NCBI RefSeq assembly: GCF_900104895.1
Contig: NZ_LT629742.1
Coordinates: 2,976,001 to 3,040,000 of the forward strand
DNA: 64,000 nt
Source of the DNA: Microterricola viridarii
Lineage (GTDB): Bacteria > Actinomycetota > Actinomycetes > Actinomycetales > Microbacteriaceae
Direction: 5' to 3'
The notes beneath the pieces are model-generated. The model did not search any database and was not told the DNA's origin. It saw nothing but the letters and a program-made list of their open reading frames with translations. A program made the position numbers and the translations under genes. Below, piece after piece: positions 35,417 through 42,847 of this stretch (positions are counted from its first letter, which is position 1; every line of letters begins with the position of its first letter).

Positions 35417-35489
35417 CTCGATGCGGCGGGCTGTTGGGGACTCGTGTAGTGCGCACCTCGTTGGCGCGCGGGCCGGCAGTTCGAGCAGC

Positions 35490-36011
35490 CTAGGACGGGA
35501 TCTCGACGCTGACGGGCGCGGCCTCGCTCGGCCCGCCGCACTGCTCGCTGCCGCCCACGCGCCGCCAGTCGAGTGCGACCTCGTGCTCCACAAGAACGTC
35601 GCCAGTTGAGGACAGCGCGCGAATCGTGGCCGTCTCCGGGGCCGCCATGTCCAACGCGATGCGCCACGTGCTCTCGTTCGTGCGGATGAAGGAGAAGATC
35701 GGGGGAACCGCTGTGGGCAACGGCGAGGCCTCGCGAGGAGCCGGGGAGAACGTCTGCAGGTCGATCGGCTCCAACGTCGTGAGAGGCAAGGGTTCGTCGG
35801 GCAACGGTTGAACGTCGGTCGATGCGGCGCACATGCCATCGATGCAGAACTCCAGCGCGGCGACGTCGTCAACGTTCCCGGTGAGGTTCACCGTTGCGCG
35901 GTTGAACCACGCGATTGCGGGGCATACCCCGGGGGTCACGAGAGTACATCCCGACAGCGCCACACTCAACAGCAGCGCGCCGGTGAAGCCCACCCGCCGA
36001 ACGTTCCTCAT
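35490..36011 (-). CDS. Lipoprotein (intact paralogue of the 39-kb pseudogene)
   Basis: 173 residues; lipobox ALSGC after a short signal. Conserved blocks: CPAIAWFNRATVNLTGNVDD, LEFCIDGMCAASTD, STWRIALDMAAPETATIRAL and a near-invariant end (VALDWRRVGGSEQCGGPSEA). The same blocks are found in the broken gene at 38990-39466. Six Cys suggest disulfides. Lower G+C than the core; at the left edge of the accessory island. Function unknown. Confidence 0.82.
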   Translation of the reverse strand: MRNVRRVGFTGALLLSVALSGCTLVTPGVCPAIAWFNRATVNLTGNVDDVAALEFCIDGMCAASTDVQPLPDEPLPLTTLEPIDLQTFSPAPREASPLPTAVPPIFSFIRTNESTWRIALDMAAPETATIRALSSTGDVLVEHEVALDWRRVGGSEQCGGPSEAAPVSVEIPS

Positions 36012-36576: not shown

Positions 36577-36960
36577 CCCGACGATCGGGCATGTTTATCG
36601 CTACTACCCCGAAATTGCAGTCCGCCCTGGATCGTGACCGTGACGGTAGTTGGCTCTGAGCCCACCGCGAATGCCACGGTCACCTGGTCGGGCGGCGAGG
36701 GAGGGCTGCACGACATCGCGAGGCAGAATGCCCCGTCACCGCCCAGCGGTGGTCCCTGACTCCGTGCTGATCGTCGTCGTGTTCCTGCGTCACGGCGTGC
36801 CTCTAAGCGGCAAGAGCAGAAGATGAGGTGCTCCGCCATCGAATCGTCTGATCATCGGCCATTCCACGTTTGCTGATTTCGTTGCGTCGCCACGACCACC
36901 TCAGAAAAGGCCACGCCTGCCGAAGCAGGCAGGGCCGTCCCAGAACGGAGCGAGCGCCGG
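36577..36960. other. Intergenic remnant DNA
   Basis: No gene is supported. A minus-strand stretch reading VTVAFAVGSEPTTVTVTIQG (~36610-36700) may be a fossil of an exported protein. 36909-36943 carries a copy of the ychF terminator hairpin (GCCTGCCGAAGCAGGC core). Confidence 0.5.
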
Positions 36961-36984
36961 GCCTTGAAGCGGGGCTCCACCGCG
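36961..36984 (-). repeat. ychF-tail repeat copy (a)
   Basis: Minus strand translates as AVEPRFKA, matching the ychF end VVEFRFNV. Together with the terminator-like sequence at 36909-36943 it reproduces the ychF 3' end in the same order. The VOC gene stop is 6 bp to its right. Confidence 0.65.
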
Positions 36985-36989
36985 CCCCG

Positions 36990-37400
36990 TCAGCGGGCCT
37001 CGTGTGGGCGCGGCGGGTTGTGCATGAATTCGATCCGGATGCCGTTGTCGTCCTCGACGAAGGAGGCGTAGTACCGCTCCGTGAACCGGGGGTACTCTTT
37101 CGGGTCGCGCACGACGGTCCACCCGGTGTCCGTCGCGATCCGATGCAGGCGGTCGACCTCCTCGCGGGAATCTACGGCGAACGCCAGGTGCTGCCACCCG
37201 ACTCGCCCGTGACGGTGCGGACCGGTGCCCGGGTCCCGAGCCGGCATGAGGATGAGCTCCGGCTCGCCGTCGAGGTTCCAGGAGACCGAGCCGTTGGCGT
37301 CATACCGGGCGAAACCGAGCGCCGCCAGCACCGGGTCGAACTGCTCGATTGCCCGCGGGACGTCGTCGACGGTGATGCCGAGATGATCGAAAATGGCCAT
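36990..37400 (-). CDS. VOC-family protein (glyoxalase/bleomycin-resistance fold)
   Basis: 136 residues from MAIFDHLGITVDD. Two beta-alpha-beta-beta-beta modules; metal-type residues H5 (FDHLGI), E in GEPELILM, H in WQHLAFAVD and E in IRIEFMHN. Actinobacterial lactoylglutathione-lyase-like; the reaction is unknown. Cargo of the interval between tail copies (a) and (b). One of three unrelated-looking VOC genes in the island. Confidence 0.88.
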   Translation of the reverse strand: MAIFDHLGITVDDVPRAIEQFDPVLAALGFARYDANGSVSWNLDGEPELILMPARDPGTGPHRHGRVGWQHLAFAVDSREEVDRLHRIATDTGWTVVRDPKEYPRFTERYYASFVEDDNGIRIEFMHNPPRPHEAR

Positions 37401-37518
37401 GAGCTGACGCGACCGGATGCATCCGCCCGGGCCATGGGCCACGTCCGGCGCCACGGGCGGCCGACAGGCGTCTCCACACGCGTCGCGGGGACCAGGCTCG
37501 GCGTCAGCGTATGTTGCT

Positions 37519-37543
37519 CGACTTTGAAGCGGAACTCCACCAC
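37519..37543 (-). repeat. ychF-tail repeat copy (b)
   Basis: TTTGAAGCGGAACTCCACCA CG on the plus strand; the minus strand reads VVEFRFKV, differing from the ychF end at one residue. The stop codon is lost, so the frame runs on. Confidence 0.75.
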
Positions 37544-37673
37544 GTGGCGCTATCGAGAAGCCTCAGAAATGTTCAGCATTCGACACGCTCTCTTGACGTT
37601 TGCCACCGCCGTCCACACGCACCTCTGAGAGCCGAACGGACGCAGCGCGGACTGTCGGCATCCCGCGAAGCAG

Positions 37674-38132
37674 GTGGCATGCGGAGTCCCCAACAATGTC
37701 TACCTGCCAATTTCGAGCTTCACGCCTCCTGTGCGCACTAACTTCGCTGACGACGCTCAGTGGTTTGCCTTGCTCGAGGGGGTCGCAAAGGAGTCCGATC
37801 ACGGGTTCCGCGCAGACGTACAAGCGATCAATAACGCCGACTTCAGGAACGCCGAATGGCAAAGCCAGCAAGCGGCTGTCCCGCAAAACAGGTTCGGCGC
37901 CGCAATTCTGCTTGTCGCCGAAACCGCCGCCTTCAGTTCACCCGATTTTCCAATTCTCGTTGTCGACACACTTCGGGACAGAATTCCATTTCGTTGCATC
38001 GCAGCCGAGCTATGGGCTGTTGAGAACAACCTCAATCTCGCGAGCATGGACTGGCAGGATTTCACGACCTCGGCCGATCAGGACGAGGTGTTCCGCGGCT
38101 TTTCGAGTCCCGCGACGTTGCTGCGCCAATAA
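37674..38132 (+). CDS. DUF6924 protein
   Basis: 152 residues from a GTG (VACGVPNNVY). VRTNFADDAQWFALLEGVAK, GFRADVQAINNADFRNA, AAILLVAETAAFSSPDFPIL and the final ASMDWQDFTTSADQDEVFRG match the DUF6924 pattern, which often occurs alone or next to toxins in actinobacteria. G+C ~55%, far below the chromosome. Lies between tail copies (b) and (c), on the opposite strand to most cargo. Function unknown. Confidence 0.82.
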   Translation: MACGVPNNVYLPISSFTPPVRTNFADDAQWFALLEGVAKESDHGFRADVQAINNADFRNAEWQSQQAAVPQNRFGAAILLVAETAAFSSPDFPILVVDTLRDRIPFRCIAAELWAVENNLNLASMDWQDFTTSADQDEVFRGFSSPATLLRQ

Positions 38133-38311
38133 CCCGGCGAACAGATGAAGGGCCGAGTTGTCGGTTCAAATTCTGGATGCAGTTGAGCTCGAAGTTGCCA
38201 CGCATCTCCACCGATTCGCCTCGTACTGTCTCCTCGGTGCGACCAGCTTCCTCGACTACAGAATTGGCCCCATCTTTAGACGCAGAGAGGGCCAATTCGA
38301 AGCTCAGATTG

Positions 38312-38339
38312 TTAGACGTTGAATCCAGACTCCACCCCG
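38312..38339 (-). repeat. ychF-tail repeat copy (c)
   Basis: TTAGACGTTGAATCCAGACT CCACCCCG; the minus strand reads GVESGFNV followed by a TAA stop, so the tail peptide and its stop position are both preserved. 47 bp left of the next VOC stop. Confidence 0.65.
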
Positions 38340-38385
38340 TTCCGCCACAGAACAACCTTTGGCTCTGGCCTAAACGGCAGGGCTC

Positions 38386-38775
38386 CTACGGCTGCACCGG
38401 AGTCATCACCTCAAGGCGATTGCCGAAACCATCACGCGTATGGAAGCGAATGTACCCCTCGAACGTATCCCGTTCCGCCCAAGAGAGCTCATACCCGCCG
38501 AGCCGCACACGCTCCGCGGTCGCTTCCAGTTCCTCACGTGACGCGCAAACAAGGCCCGGATGCGCCTTTGCGGCAGGGACAAACGGATCGTCGGCGCCGA
38601 GATGGATCTCCGCAACGACGACCTCACCGTCGAAAGCACGGAACCAGCAGCCACCTCTGCCGGCCAAGGATGGCGGCTTCTGAACTTCATGCAGCCCGAT
38701 CGCTTCGCCATAGAAGCGACGTGCCTCAGCTTCCTGACCACGCGGCATGGAGACCTGAACATGATGGAGCTTCAT
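38386..38775 (-). CDS. VOC-family protein
   Basis: 129 residues; GAGGGGG precedes the ATG at 38775. MKLHHVQVSMPRGQEAEARR with a first-strand His, GCWFRAFDGEVVVAEIHLGA and FGNRLEVMTPVQP with the late Glu fit metal-binding VOC proteins. Resembles small glyoxalase-like proteins of actinobacteria. Low G+C. Cargo of interval (c)-(d). Confidence 0.86.
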   Translation of the reverse strand: MKLHHVQVSMPRGQEAEARRFYGEAIGLHEVQKPPSLAGRGGCWFRAFDGEVVVAEIHLGADDPFVPAAKAHPGLVCASREELEATAERVRLGGYELSWAERDTFEGYIRFHTRDGFGNRLEVMTPVQP

Positions 38776-38920
38776 ACCCAACCCCCTCACATTCGTCTTG
38801 ACATCAAGATAAATGTAGCAAGAGTGCGTGCGACCGAGCGAGCGAGCCCAAGACGGGGACCACATGAAAGCACCCCGGCTTTGGGGCGATGGGCTCGCCA
38901 GAAGTTGGACCGGGCCGCGA

Positions 38921-38948
38921 CTAGACGTTCAAGCGGAACTCCATCACG
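38921..38948 (-). repeat. ychF-tail repeat copy (d)
   Basis: CTAGACGTTCAAGCGGAACT CCATCACG matches the true ychF end at 26 of 28 positions, including the stop. The minus strand reads VMEFRLNV-stop. Confidence 0.85.
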
Positions 38949-38989
38949 TTCCGAAGCCAATTAGTATCTGGGCCGTTCGTTTGAACAGG

Positions 38990-39466
38990 TTACGACGGGA
39001 TGTCAAGGGTCACTGGGCCAGCCTCGCTCGGACCGCCGCATTGCTCGCTGCCACCTACGCGCCGCCAATCGAGCTGAACTTCCTGCTCGACGAGGACGGA
39101 GTCAGTTCACGCCACGGCACGAAGCGTGATCTTGTCGGGTGCGGCGAGAACATAAGTGACGCGCCACGTGGTTTCGTCCTCACGGGTGACGGAGAACACC
39201 GATGACTGAGGTGCCGAACCCTTCGGCCCGGTCTGCCGAAGGTCCGCGGAGCCCCGCTTCAGGTCGAGCGGGCCCACAGTCGACGAGGTACACACACCGT
39301 CCTCGCACACGTCAACTGAGGCAACGTCGTCAACGGCCCCGGCGAGGCTTACTGTGACGTGATTGAACCAGCCAATTTCAGGGCATGCCTCCGGTGTTCT
39401 GCAGCCGGACACCGCGAAGCCCACCAGCAGCGCGACGGCAACCCCCAAGACTCGAGCTCTCCCCAT
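38990..39466 (-). pseudogene. Lipoprotein gene interrupted by an in-frame TGA
   Basis: From ATG 39466 (TAGGGT ends 7 nt upstream): signal peptide, lipobox AVSGC, CPEIGWFNHVTVSLAGAVDD, TTWRVTYVLAAPDKITLRAV, then TGA at 39107-39109, then in the same frame TDSVLVEQEVQLDWRRVGGS and EQCGGPSEAGPVTLDIPS-stop. The part after the TGA matches the intact paralogue at 35490-36011 (LDWRRVGGSEQCGGPSEA), proving that the original gene extended through it. Promoter, signal and tail are intact, so the lesion is recent or read through. Confidence 0.85.
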
Positions 39467-39835
39467 GCTGGCAACCCTAGCCACCGGACGCGGACGCGGC
39501 GCAGCATCCGCAGCCGGGCAGCACAGAAACGACCCCGCCTGCCGAAGCAGACGGGGCCGTTCCAGGAGCGAAAACGAACCACACGTTGAAGCGGACCTCC
39601 ACCACGCCCCGGCGCCGAACAACGTTTGAACGTGCAGAGTTCCCCTCCAGAAACACCGTCTCCCCTCGGTGAAGCCCGATTGACGTTCGTTCAGGTGCCC
39701 CACTAGATTCGACGGTGATGATGACCAGTCAGGCCCCGCTCGGCCGTTCCCGGAACGGCAACCTGGTCGTTCCCTGACCCGTGCGCCTCCTTGCGTGAGT
39801 GACCCGAAATCACCCACCACACGACAAGGAGAATC
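39467..39835. other. Intergenic region with terminator copy and tail copy (e)
   Basis: No gene is supported. Holds the leaderless promoter of the lipoprotein pseudogene at its left end, a near-perfect copy of the ychF terminator (39533-39560), the tail copy (39581-39607), and the promoter region of the next VOC gene, whose ribosome site AAGGAG lies at the right end. Confidence 0.6.
39581..39607 (-). repeat. ychF-tail repeat copy (e)
   Basis: CACACGTTGAAGCGGACCTC CACCACG; the minus strand reads VVEVRFNV. The terminator hairpin CCCCGCCTGCCGAAGCAGAC GGGGCCG follows at the genuine distance (39533-39560), so ~75 bp of the ychF 3' region is duplicated here. Confidence 0.88.
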
Positions 39836-40210
39836 ATGACAGCGCTCTTCAACCACACGATCATCGCCGCGAAAGACCCCACTGAGATGGGCCAGTTCTA
39901 TCGCGATCTACTCGAAGCCGACGAAGCCCCCAGCTGGGGCCCGTTCGTCAACATTCAGATCGGAGGCGGTGTCCTGCTCCAGTTCGCGGCCCCGCCGTTC
40001 GAGTTCCCGCCCCAGCACTACGCCTATCTGCTCGATGATGCCCACTTCGATCGGGCACACACCAAGATCAGTGGCAGCCGGCAGGAGTACTGGGCCGACC
40101 CCCAACGCTCCCGCCCGGGCGAGATCAACAACGATCACGGCGGGCGCGGCGTGTACCTGCTCGACCCGTCCGGGCACTACCTCGAGTTGATCACGCAGCC
40201 CTATCTGTAG
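39836..40210 (+). CDS. VOC-family protein
   Basis: 124 residues; AAGGAG 6 bp before the ATG. FNHTIIAAKDPTEMGQFYRD with a first-strand His, FEFPPQHYAYLLDDAHFD, HGGRGVYLLDPSGHYLELIT with His and Glu near the end. Typical of small dioxygenase-like VOC proteins of unknown substrate. Higher G+C than its left neighbours. Cargo right of copy (e), sharing the interval with the kinase gene (convergent). Confidence 0.88.
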   Translation: MTALFNHTIIAAKDPTEMGQFYRDLLEADEAPSWGPFVNIQIGGGVLLQFAAPPFEFPPQHYAYLLDDAHFDRAHTKISGSRQEYWADPQRSRPGEINNDHGGRGVYLLDPSGHYLELITQPYL

Positions 40211-40472
40211 GGCGGCGGGTTTGCATACTCACGTACTGCCGGGCCTCCCCGCTGGTGTGGATGCCGGGCACAACCGGCATCCGCACCGGGCCGGCAAGCG
40301 GGCGACACATTGTTAGAGGTGTGAATCCCACGGTCTCGGAGCCGAATCACACGATAACTCGTGTGGACCTCCAGAAGCACAACTGTGGCCGGCGCTCTCT
40401 CGGCGTGGATTCGCACACGCACGCTTCGCCGTCCGGCGCTCACCGTCTCCAGTGACGGCGTATGGCGCGCAT

Positions 40473-40943
40473 TCAGCGGGCGACGACGCTTATCGGCCCC
40501 TCGTCAGGAGTCGGTGGTTCAAAGTGGTCGAAGTAGTCTGCAGCGGTCACCGGGTCCAAGGCGAAATCGTCGCCATGCGCGCGAGAACGGGCGGCCACGC
40601 GTGCCAGGCACGTGGCCCGGTCCGTTGCAATGTAGATCGTCTCCGGGACTATTCCGTGAGACCGCACGAGATGGCGCCAATCGTCCCGCATGGCCCGCGA
40701 CCAAAAGGAGAAGTCGAGAACGACGTCCCTCTCTTCGCCGATGAGACGAAGCAGACGATGACGGAGATATTCCTCCACATCGCGCTGCACATCGTCGGAG
40801 AGTGGCATGTGTTGAATGCCGCGCTCCCATGCTTCCTGGTCGAACGAAAGCCTGACCATGCCCTCAGTCTCGAGGCAGCGCGCCACCGTCGATTTCCCCG
40901 AGCCTGCAGGGCCGCACATGAAGACAACTCGCGTCACAGCCAC
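40473..40943 (-). CDS. P-loop AAA_33-type kinase
   Basis: 156 residues. Walker A GPAGSGKST (11-19), a DxxxW-type acceptor (SFDQEAWERGI), Walker B-like VVLDFSFWSRAMRD and a lid with RATCLARVAARSRA. Size and layout fit small kinases/zeta-toxin-like or chloramphenicol-phosphotransferase-like proteins of the AAA_33 group. Substrate not decidable; a resistance or nucleotide-modifying role is possible. No antitoxin-like gene is adjacent. Confidence 0.85.
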   Translation of the reverse strand: MAVTRVVFMCGPAGSGKSTVARCLETEGMVRLSFDQEAWERGIQHMPLSDDVQRDVEEYLRHRLLRLIGEERDVVLDFSFWSRAMRDDWRHLVRSHGIVPETIYIATDRATCLARVAARSRAHGDDFALDPVTAADYFDHFEPPTPDEGPISVVAR

Positions 40944-41003
40944 ACCCTAGCGCCAGGGGCGCTTCCCGCTGACCGCCAGCAGGCGTCGTGGTGAAATGCG
41001 GCC

Positions 41004-41029
41004 CGACCTTGAAGCCGAACTCCACCGCA
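41004..41029 (-). repeat. ychF-tail repeat copy (f)
   Basis: CGACCTTGAAGCCGAACTCC ACCGCA; the minus strand reads AVEFGFKV. 14 bp left of the DUF2695 gene stop. No terminator copy beside it. Confidence 0.65.
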
Positions 41030-41042
41030 TTCTGAAACCGAA

Positions 41043-41471
41043 TTACCGGTACCGCGGGCGGAAAACGCGCTCCCAGTTCGTGCATGGCTTGGTCGAGCCC
41101 CGTCGTGTCGTCCCGCACGGAGGCATCCTGTCGGGTGGCTTGAAGTCCACCCGTTCACCCCACTCCTCCGAGTCGACCGATTCCTGCACCGGCGTCCACA
41201 GCCGCGCGGCGGGCTCGTAGCTGTTCATGAACATCTCACAATCGCAGCAGCATGCGCCCATCGCTGAGAGTCGCGAGAGCAGTGCCGTGGCGCGAGGCGC
41301 AACGCTGTCTCGATAGTGCGAAATAAACCGGTGGGTGCCGTCGCACCCGAACTCGTCGAGCTGGCGAGCCACGAAGCAGACGAGACATTCGCCGGCCGTG
41401 GGTGTCGTGAGGGTCGAGGCGGCATCGTGAAGGATCCGCTCGGCCCGTTCCGTGATCTCTGTGCGTTCCAT
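41043..41471 (-). CDS. DUF2695 protein
   Basis: 142 residues. ECLVCFVARQLDEFGCDGTH and SRLSAMGACCCDCEMFMNSY carry the DUF2695 cysteine/histidine pattern (GCDGTHR and CDCE), which may bind metal. The C-terminal ~45 residues (from VDFKPPDRMPPCG) are unlike the family and may derive from the junction with the repeat. Cargo nearest to ychF, so it is the most recent unit if accretion is at ychF. Confidence 0.8.
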   Translation of the reverse strand: MERTEITERAERILHDAASTLTTPTAGECLVCFVARQLDEFGCDGTHRFISHYRDSVAPRATALLSRLSAMGACCCDCEMFMNSYEPAARLWTPVQESVDSEEWGERVDFKPPDRMPPCGTTRRGSTKPCTNWERVFRPRYR

Positions 41472-41513
41472 GAGTGAACCGTGCCACGAGCCACCGACAC
41501 CGCGGCCGACCTC

Positions 41514-41556
41514 GGCATCCGCATCGGCATCGGCATCGGCATCGGCATCGGCCCTA
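41514..41556. repeat. GGCATC hexanucleotide microsatellite
   Basis: Six tandem 6-bp units (GGCATC with one GCATCC variant) upstream of the DUF2695 gene. A slippage-prone tract in the promoter area. Confidence 0.8.
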
Positions 41557-41626
41557 CCGGACGGGCCGCTCGGCCGCGCCAGGCCCGCCCGTTCGGCTGC
41601 GCGCCGTTCGTCGGGATCCGCCCCGC

Positions 41627-41697
41627 CGTCGCGGCCCGTGAAATGTCTCGCGGCCCGCGATATGTCGGGGGCCGCGAGACATTTCGGGGGCCGCGAG
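41627..41697. repeat. GGCCGCGAGAC palindrome, copy 2
   Basis: AAATGTCTCGCGGCCC (41641-41656) and GGGCCGCGAGACATTT (41669-41684): perfect 16-bp stem, 12-bp loop, flanked by further GCGGCCCG and GGGCCGCGAG half-sites, exactly the arrangement at 25728-25809. Confidence 0.8.
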
Positions 41698-41724
41698 CGC
41701 GAAGCCAGCGGGCGAAAACCGGAA

Positions 41725-41754
41725 CGGCCCCGCCTGCCGAAGCAGACGGGGCCG
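41725..41754 (-). terminator. ychF intrinsic terminator
   Basis: CGGCCCCG and CGGGGCCG plus inner CCTGC/GCAG pairs around CGAA; on the minus strand it follows the ychF stop by 20 bp and is followed by a T-rich GGTTTTCG stretch. Copied at 36909 and 39533. Confidence 0.75.
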
Positions 41755-41773
41755 TCCCAGAAACTAGCGAAGG

Positions 41774-42847
41774 CTAGACGTTGAAGCGGAACTCCACCAC
41801 GTCGCCGTCCTGCATGACGTACTCCTTGCCCTCCATGCGGGCCTTGCCCTTGGCGCGTGCCTCGGCGACCGAGCCGGTCTCGACGAGGTCCTCGAAGGAG
41901 ATGACCTCGGCCTTGATGAAGCCGCGCTCGAAGTCGGTGTGGATGACGCCGGCCGCCTGCGGAGCCTTGGCGCCCTTGGGGATCGTCCAGGCGCGGGTCT
42001 CCTTCGGGCCAGCCGTCAGGTAGGTCTGCAGGCCGAGGGTGTCGAAGCCGATGCGGGCGAGCTGGTTCAGGCCGGACTCGGTCTGGCCGGTCGAGGCGAG
42101 CATCTCGGCGGCATCCTCGTCGTCCAGGTCGATCAGCTCGGATTCCAGCTTGGCGTCGAGGAAGATGGCCTTGGCCGGGGCGACGAGGGCGGCCAGCTCG
42201 GCGAGCTTGGCGTCATCCTGCAGGACGGCCTCGTCAACGTTGAAGACGTAGATGAAGGGCTTGGCCGTCAGGAGGCCGAGCTCCTTGATGGGCTCGAGGT
42301 CGACGGATGCCGCAGACAGCGGGGTTCCGGTGTTCAGCGCGTCGCGGGCCTCGTTGGCGGCCACGAGCACCTCCGGGCCGAGCTTCTTGCCCTTGATCTC
42401 CTTCTCGAAGCGCGGGATCGCCTTCTCGAGGGTCTCCAGGTCGGCGAGGATCAGCTCGGTGTTGATGGTCTCCATGTCGCCGGCCGGGTTGACCTTGCCG
42501 TCGACGTGCACCACGTCGGAGTCGGCGAAGCCGCGCACGACCTGCGCGATGGCGTCGGCCTCGCGGATGTTGGCGAGGAACTTGTTGCCCAGGCCCTCAC
42601 CCTCGCTGGCGCCGCGCACGATGCCGGCGATGTCGACGAACGACACCGCAGCCGGCAGGATGCGCTCGCTGCCGAAGATCTCGGCGAGTTTCTCCAGCCG
42701 GGCGTCGGGCAGGTTGACGACACCGATGTTGGGCTCGATCGTGGCGAACGGGTAGTTCGCCGCGAGAACCTGGTTCTTCGTCAGAGCGTTGAAAAGGGTT
42801 GACTTGCCGACGTTGGGCAGACCAACGATTCCAATAGTAAGAGCCAC
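41774..42847 (-). CDS. ychF: Redox-regulated ATPase YchF (Obg family)
   Basis: 357 residues from GTG ([14 protein letters not shown]). P-loop GLPNVGKST (G1), switch region [11 protein letters not shown]3 [10 protein letters not shown] and the NVDEA segment replacing NKxD, which makes it an ATPase rather than GTPase. The C-terminal TGS domain ends [16 protein letters not shown]. The last 28 bp of this gene are the prototype of the repeats in the island to its left. Housekeeping ribosome-associated protein; intact. Confidence 0.97.

Follow-up and report, generated by a model that had tools for sequence, protein, structure and literature searches.

What has strewn copies of the end of a housekeeping gene through the region downstream of it, always in the orientation of the gene itself and with small genes set between them? 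The question is raised by a stretch of 64,000 nucleotides (hereafter 'the window') from the actinomycete Microterricola viridarii (contig NZ_LT629742.1, positions 2,976,001 to 3,040,000), in which ychF is followed on its 3' side by six degenerate copies of its own last 28 bp. A sequence-only reading had proposed that integration occurs repeatedly at the ychF 3' end, with each event restoring the gene and leaving the old end behind as a 'scar'. That proposal is supported by the recurrence of such arrays across the Microbacteriaceae (the family within which they were sought), by pairs of occupied and empty sites whose junction falls within the copied gene end, and by serine integrases that adjoin the site. 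We consider it probable, on the strength of these comparisons of sequence, that the ychF 3' end is the attachment site of Microbacteriaceae integrative elements that encode, or once depended upon, a large serine integrase.

A search of the window with the 28-bp end of ychF, allowing up to seven mismatches, returns ychF itself (position 41774, no mismatches) and the six copies (Table 1), all in the same orientation; the opposite strand holds no copy at that threshold, and letter-shuffled queries yield 0.02 matches each (n = 50). A 21-base version at up to three mismatches matches six times in the window (0 expected), and a 25-base version at up to three mismatches matches four times in the 3.84-Mb genome, in every case within the ychF array (0 for the reversed control); in this genome, the repeats are therefore not the dispersed family that the sequence-only reading had named as fatal to its own proposal. 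The copies that it listed all exist, with start positions 0 to 4 bases off, and their minus-strand translations agree with the copy sequences; the terminator hairpin that it placed beside two of them is also present, as repeats of family D3 at 36906 and 39528 in addition to the one at 41723. The ychF gene itself is whole, with six old ends behind it as direct repeats of one orientation, as would be expected of a staphylococcal cassette chromosome (SCC)-like system in which the end of the target is restored and the old end is kept. Past the ychF terminator there is also a large, near-perfect hairpin (41624-41701; two 37-nt arms, 86% complementary, with a 4-nt loop), and a similar stretch is found behind ychF in two relatives (genomes G002 and G004).

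The same arrangement recurs in related genomes. When ychF was located in 102 related loci (by tblastn with the window's ychF product) and each locus was searched with its own last 28 bp at up to seven mismatches, 51 copies were found downstream in the orientation of the gene, one downstream in the opposite orientation (L149) and none upstream. Seventeen of these loci come from genomes that had been picked for several matches; the 80 for which YchF similarity was the sole criterion (the top 80 out of 554) contribute 18 downstream copies of the same orientation, in 15 loci, and none that is opposite or upstream. Across 398 genomes, a 23-base pattern at up to two mismatches matches in 294, as a rule including ychF itself, and its reversed control gives seven single matches; by hand count, 53 of the 398 carry at least two matches on one strand, some of them far apart or on different contigs. 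A stricter scar pattern, built with the element-type left side (and which a ychF flank at one mismatch escapes), is found at 29 places in 24 of the 398 genomes and 18 of 85 genera, with 0 of 398 for its reversed control; the neighbouring ychF was checked for part of the 29 places, and the pattern undercounts, because the decayed scars of the window escape it. Larger arrays occur in G255, where the 14 kb next to ychF hold four copies ('tails') and a further 3.4 kb leads to a fifth, and in G376, with five tails at up to four mismatches, and up to ten at five mismatches, across two contigs, one of which is joined to ychF by inference only.

When aligned, the copies resemble ychF for approximately 28 bp and fall to the level of chance past the stop codon and upstream of about position -32. 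The flank upstream of them has a distinct motif that approximates GTTNTTCNGNNNCGGAAC or GCCTAACNNTNNCGTAAC. A matrix constructed from ten integrase-side flanks, with its threshold set at the 99th percentile of random sites, places 54 of 85 tails above that threshold, versus five of 102 ychF ends. For window scars 1 to 6, the share of 50,000 random sites that score as high is 0.0043, 0.0004, 0, 0, 0 and 0.012, respectively, and for ychF itself it is 0.065; the flank on the integrase side resembles that of the window's scars. An inverted repeat, CGGAAC/GTTCCG, was spotted by eye around the core (the attC sites of integrons fold as hairpins). In six loci (L102, L127, L130, L138, L144 and L147), a CTGACCAGGGGTTTT-like stretch recurs 1 to 15 bp past the stop codon, behind ychF or a scar, and is perhaps part of an element end or of a terminator.

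The site is also found beside genes for large serine recombinases. Ten large serine recombinases start about 50 bp or less from a scar-type site and point away from it, on four viral contigs (L151, L153, L157 and L159) and in six genomes (G143, G092, G260, G318, G038 and G079). A search of viral contigs with flank plus tail, blind to integrases, returned one contig (L242), on which the site again adjoins an integrase, one that shares 65% identity with its L159 counterpart; a longer element-side pattern matched none of the viral contigs. This brings the total to 11 large serine integrases beside a scar-type site, with one more beside ychF itself: the integrase gene of Microbacterium hominis (L073), whose product is closely related to the G318 integrase, begins immediately past the end of ychF, on the opposite side of the site from all the others, a placement that the model presented below leaves unexplained. 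All five of the tail-adjacent integrases that were tested carry the Resolvase and Recombinase domains (PF00239 and PF07508), a combination found beside the attachment site in these related elements and not in the window. In a profile search of the 398 genomes, a tail lies at the start of the gene in six of the seven best loci (G313 being the exception), and the remaining 23 of the 30 best give one match (L219, four mismatches) that is probably due to chance. Against plasmid records, the G318 integrase has relatives at no more than 31% identity among the matches listed. The closest named phages found are the Microbacterium phages SuMoo, Percival, Caron and Gretchen (40 to 44% identity); these and Mycobacterium phage LastHope, five of 1071 matching records, have no ychF end at the start of the integrase gene, and a single five-mismatch match behind that gene in Caron is probably fortuitous. 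The likely recombinase behind the scars, judging from these neighbourhoods, is a large serine integrase.

Comparisons between relatives display the site in both its occupied and its empty forms. The 7.0 kb next to ychF in G318 terminate in an integrase and a scar; beyond them, 817 bp that contain a PIN-domain gene and no integrase form an interval closed by a second scar (nine of ten open reading frames (ORFs) tried in this region have no Pfam match); in G079, 7.7 kb separate ychF from the scar and carry a Prim-Pol/AAA protein, a resolvase and an integrase. In both, ychF, integrase and scar occur in one stretch. The sequence directly behind ychF in Agromyces luteolus corresponds to that found behind a scar 632 bp further on in A. 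cavernae (the pair L058/L059; 80% identity), and the same relation holds in Curtobacterium (L117 vs L101) at a distance of 5.1 kb, with 75% identity. G002 aligns with the window up to the scar at 41002 (94.8%) and again from the scar at 37517 (90.9%); the four intervals that run from scar 1 to scar 5, 3.49 kb in all, are absent from it. What the relatives are short of in these comparisons is thus just the intervals that integration would predict. Gene order downstream of ychF, the conservation of which would have spoken against repeated integration, is not conserved across the genus; one gene, encoding the VOC protein at 36990, is shared, being found behind ychF in three of four relatives (G001, G002 and G004).

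In the mechanism that we propose, crossover would take place in the conserved GGTGGAG core, approximately 20 bp ahead of the ychF stop codon. The incoming element would bring the last codons (EFRFNV-stop or a variant thereof), and ychF would stay intact because the element supplies them; the displaced end would be kept at the far border as a hybrid, composed of an element half-site and the old ychF end. Because the element's other half is bound to encode the C-terminus of YchF, it would resemble the half that it replaces, and the rebuilt ychF end would therefore be reusable, allowing elements to accumulate. The autonomous elements of G318 and G079 carry their integrase beside the far site, and the window holds six intervals that have none. 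We infer that integrases of this type made the scars of the window, where the array would have grown stepwise through reuse of the site. Variation at the gene end itself is seen in four loci (L073, L075, L124 and L229), where ychF ends in EFRHS-stop rather than EFRFNV or EFRFNN; an ordinary old ychF end lies further downstream in the last three, and elements seem to have changed the C-terminus of YchF. On three related viral contigs (L154, L160 and L161), a diverged copy of the ychF end lies in inverted orientation no more than about 70 bp past that end.

The intervals between scars are short and their contents varied. Across the family, 117 intervals (a lenient cut, in which duplicates from three genomes are counted) have a median length of 1.27 kb, and many intervals of the window's type measure 0.3 to 1.5 kb. 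Cargo was taken as the longest ORFs, because a codon-based gene caller missed atypical cargo, and some of these surely lie on the wrong strand. Among 127 such ORFs, the raw counts (from which no enrichment for defense is claimed) are four short-chain dehydrogenases, four AAA_33 proteins, three Abi_2/AbiD proteins, three alpha/beta hydrolases, three glyoxalases, two HepT-like proteins and a type I restriction set; the array that follows ychF in L147 includes a type I restriction system. The window's own cargo (Table 1) had been described as VOC, DUF6924, lipoprotein, kinase and DUF2695 genes, and most of this annotation holds by Pfam (two Glyoxalase domains, DUF6924, AAA_33 and DUF2695), with the third VOC protein falling below the cut-off and the lipoprotein having no Pfam match. 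Of the four minus-strand genes said to stop 6 to 47 bp from a copy, three do so approximately (5, 13 and 46 bp) and the lipoprotein gene does not (158 bp); the low G+C content attributed to the cargo is mild, at 57.5 to 69.1% per interval versus 70.1% for the window (68.6% for the VOC gene at 36990). Beyond the array, a 232-bp direct repeat (35470-35701 vs 38970-39201, 71% identity) represents a diverged twin of the lipoprotein-like gene of interval 3. A tRNA gene as the target was considered and dropped, there being no tRNA in the window.

Table 1. Features of the ychF array in the window, in order of distance from ychF.
Feature	Coordinates	Strand	Remarks
ychF	41774..42847	-	ORF; last ~28 bp are the proposed attachment site (attB)
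Terminator-like hairpin 3' of ychF	41723..41765	-	repeat family D3
DUF2695 protein, interval 1	41043..41471	-	Pfam PF10905; interval 1 also in G002
Scar 1	41002..41029	-	6/28 mismatches; AVEFGFKV; element-side flank 41029-41063
AAA_33 kinase-like protein, interval 2	40473..40943	-	Pfam PF13671
VOC-like protein, interval 2	39836..40210	+	Glyoxalase 17.2 bits, under cut-off of 20.6
Scar 2	39579..39606	-	3 mismatches; VVEVRFNV; followed by hairpin copy; element-side flank 39606-39640
Hairpin copy 3' of scar 2	39528..39570	-	repeat family D3
Small lipoprotein-like protein, interval 3	39107..39466	-	ORF only, no Pfam match
Scar 3	38921..38948	-	2 mismatches; VMEFRLNV-stop; element-side flank 38948-38982
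VOC protein, interval 4	38386..38865	-	Pfam PF00903
Scar 4	38312..38339	-	6 mismatches; GVESGFNV-stop; element-side flank 38339-38373
DUF6924 protein, interval 5	37674..38132	+	Pfam PF21962
Scar 5	37517..37544	-	2 mismatches; VVEFRFKV; element-side flank 37544-37578
VOC protein, interval 6	36990..37454	-	Pfam PF00903; also behind ychF in G001, G002 and G004
Scar 6	36957..36984	-	7 mismatches; AVEPRFKA; followed by hairpin copy; weakest copy
Hairpin copy 3' of scar 6	36906..36948	-	repeat family D3

A number of observations weigh against integration by large serine integrases as the source of the scars. The window array contains no such integrase, and the two large serine recombinases encoded in the rest of the genome lie distant from it and not at tails, scoring 286 and 217 bits versus at least 386 for those that are tail-adjacent in the genomes searched. 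The tail-adjacent enzymes do not form a single clade (in a tree of which some rows are faulty), and the right halves of the sites on L151, L153, L157 and L159 are ychF-like by choice, because those four viral integrases were retrieved with the exact ychF end. The flanks of 31 of the 85 tails fall below threshold; only 17 of 103 alignments that pair sequence downstream of a scar with sequence downstream of ychF begin inside the tail, the rest starting further in; and a deletion between repeats would look identical to the gap in G002. In G004, no scar separates the VOC gene from ychF and its terminator, which the model does not simply explain; that gene may therefore have long occupied this position, and scar 6 is the least certain of the copies. 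Finally, tyrosine recombinases are likewise found at this site or close to it: on viral contigs L150, L152, L155 and L161 (the last a weak match), as fragments in the Curtobacterium array L101, as a gene near L116, and, on L159, across the tail from the serine integrase. These were found with a profile of 30 sequences (an earlier regular expression had matched none), which detects no tyrosine recombinase, and hence no candidate for an IntI, in the window, and only the L101 fragments and the gene near L116 in the ychF loci. The sequence-only reading had seen no recombinase in the array and had proposed that the enzyme is supplied in trans, which is plausible.

How far do these points favor other origins? 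The scars might have been made by phages or islands that carry a tyrosine recombinase and target this end of ychF, and the array of G144 (L134) includes a copy with about 60 bp of ychF-like sequence, unlike the 28-bp scars; however, five viral contigs (L150, L152, L154, L160 and L161) bear a longer ychF-like stretch at the site, it is the flank of the serine-integrase sites that matches the window's scars, and G358 has an array in a genome with two tyrosine recombinases only, presumed to be XerC and XerD, all of which makes this origin improbable. Xer recombination itself was dropped in view of G358, although it formally survives to the extent that those two enzymes are taken, as an assumption of ours, to be XerC and XerD. 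An origin that dispenses with a site-specific recombinase, by way of duplication, slippage or homologous exchange between the short repeats, could account for the four intervals missing from G002 and agrees with the nearby duplication of the lipoprotein-like stretch; but the repeats of unrelated loci break off abruptly at about 28 bp, share a flank motif absent from ychF, lie downstream only and in one orientation, and are adjoined by integrases, and we regard such an origin as very unlikely indeed. A far closer competitor accepts the same integration and regards the intervals as once full-size autonomous elements that have shrunk by deletion, such that neither cassette movement nor a recombinase in trans is needed. 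Full-size integrase elements are present at the same place, part of the window's scars are badly decayed, and a HigBA pair (the partner of HigB matching HTH_3) lies immediately behind a tail or ychF in nine loci (L061, L069, L071, L122, L123, L131, L132, L136 and L240) with a right border that varies among them; moreover, of 249 pairs of intervals that share at least 250 bp, just four match at both ends, all within a genus. On the other side, the 0.8-kb interval of G318 has its own good scar behind an integrase element, G002 differs from the window by whole intervals, and a nearly whole interval of about 700 bp occupies different ranks (next to ychF in G376 and G103, behind the fourth scar in G255), albeit within one genus group. 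We judge the case for shrunken elements to be evenly balanced; the intervals could be small cassettes that move as units or decayed remnants. Doubtful, although worth stating, is a fuller form of the cassette alternative, in which the array would be a serine-integrase counterpart of the integron, with a near-universal gene end as its landing site and integrase-less half-site cassettes that phages or autonomous elements would mobilize in trans as they pass through. With the YchF C-terminus necessarily encoded by the other half-site, the landing site would be rebuilt and scars would remain close to the donor site, and one enzyme could then both insert and excise without a directionality factor, which would be unusual for this enzyme class.

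If integration by large serine integrases is indeed the source of the arrays, a whole family of bacteria, a large group from soil, plants and water, would share the ychF 3' end as a landing place of accessory genes, including those for defense and toxin-antitoxin functions, and the strong conservation of their natural target would make the integrases valuable in genome engineering. Our searches, which left subscription journals mostly outside their coverage, found no report of the actinobacterial ychF 3' end as an integration site, and ychF is not described as such a landing place in the literature searched.

The closest known parallel is SCC, which inserts at the 3' end of rlmH (orfX) by means of a serine recombinase, restores that conserved gene end, and forms tandem elements between old ends, among them recombinase-less elements and varied cargo that includes defense genes. 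The ychF arrays share each of these features (with scars in tandem), and would mean that SCC-like arrays are known from two independent cases, here with a simple and testable reason for the repeated use of the site. They differ in target (ychF rather than rlmH), in phylum, in the small size of many of their intervals, and in enzyme: there is no ccr recombinase in the window array, and five tail-adjacent integrases score 30 to 65 bits on CcrA/B/C models with cut-offs of 700 to 900. The arrays are thus SCC-like rather than SCC, at another gene and with a non-Ccr integrase. The likeness to integrons is one of layout, with rows of one- and two-gene intervals, short repeats of one orientation, and cargo that includes toxin-antitoxin and defense genes; in contrast, it is serine rather than tyrosine recombinases that lie beside the sites, genes point in both directions, the landing site is within a housekeeping gene, and no integrase gene stands at the head of the array in the window. 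Actinobacterial prophages with serine integrases have the same integrase domain make-up, and contigs L151, L153, L157, L159 and L242 carry a ychF end beside the integrase, whereas the array intervals hold no recognizable phage genes. The Prim-Pol/AAA gene of the G079 element recalls the primase-helicase pair reported for SCCmec (PMC7581432). The ychF neighborhood is also the integration site of a pneumococcal prophage, whose insertion, at a site of 14 bp, changes the promoter of ychF; it lies upstream of ychF rather than at its 3' end, and the available portion of the report describes no array (PMC6375853). Finally, tandem copies of a plasmid have been reported (PMC12884075) for which integration at a reconstituted attB might be the explanation, which is the same step as that proposed here for the growth of the ychF arrays.

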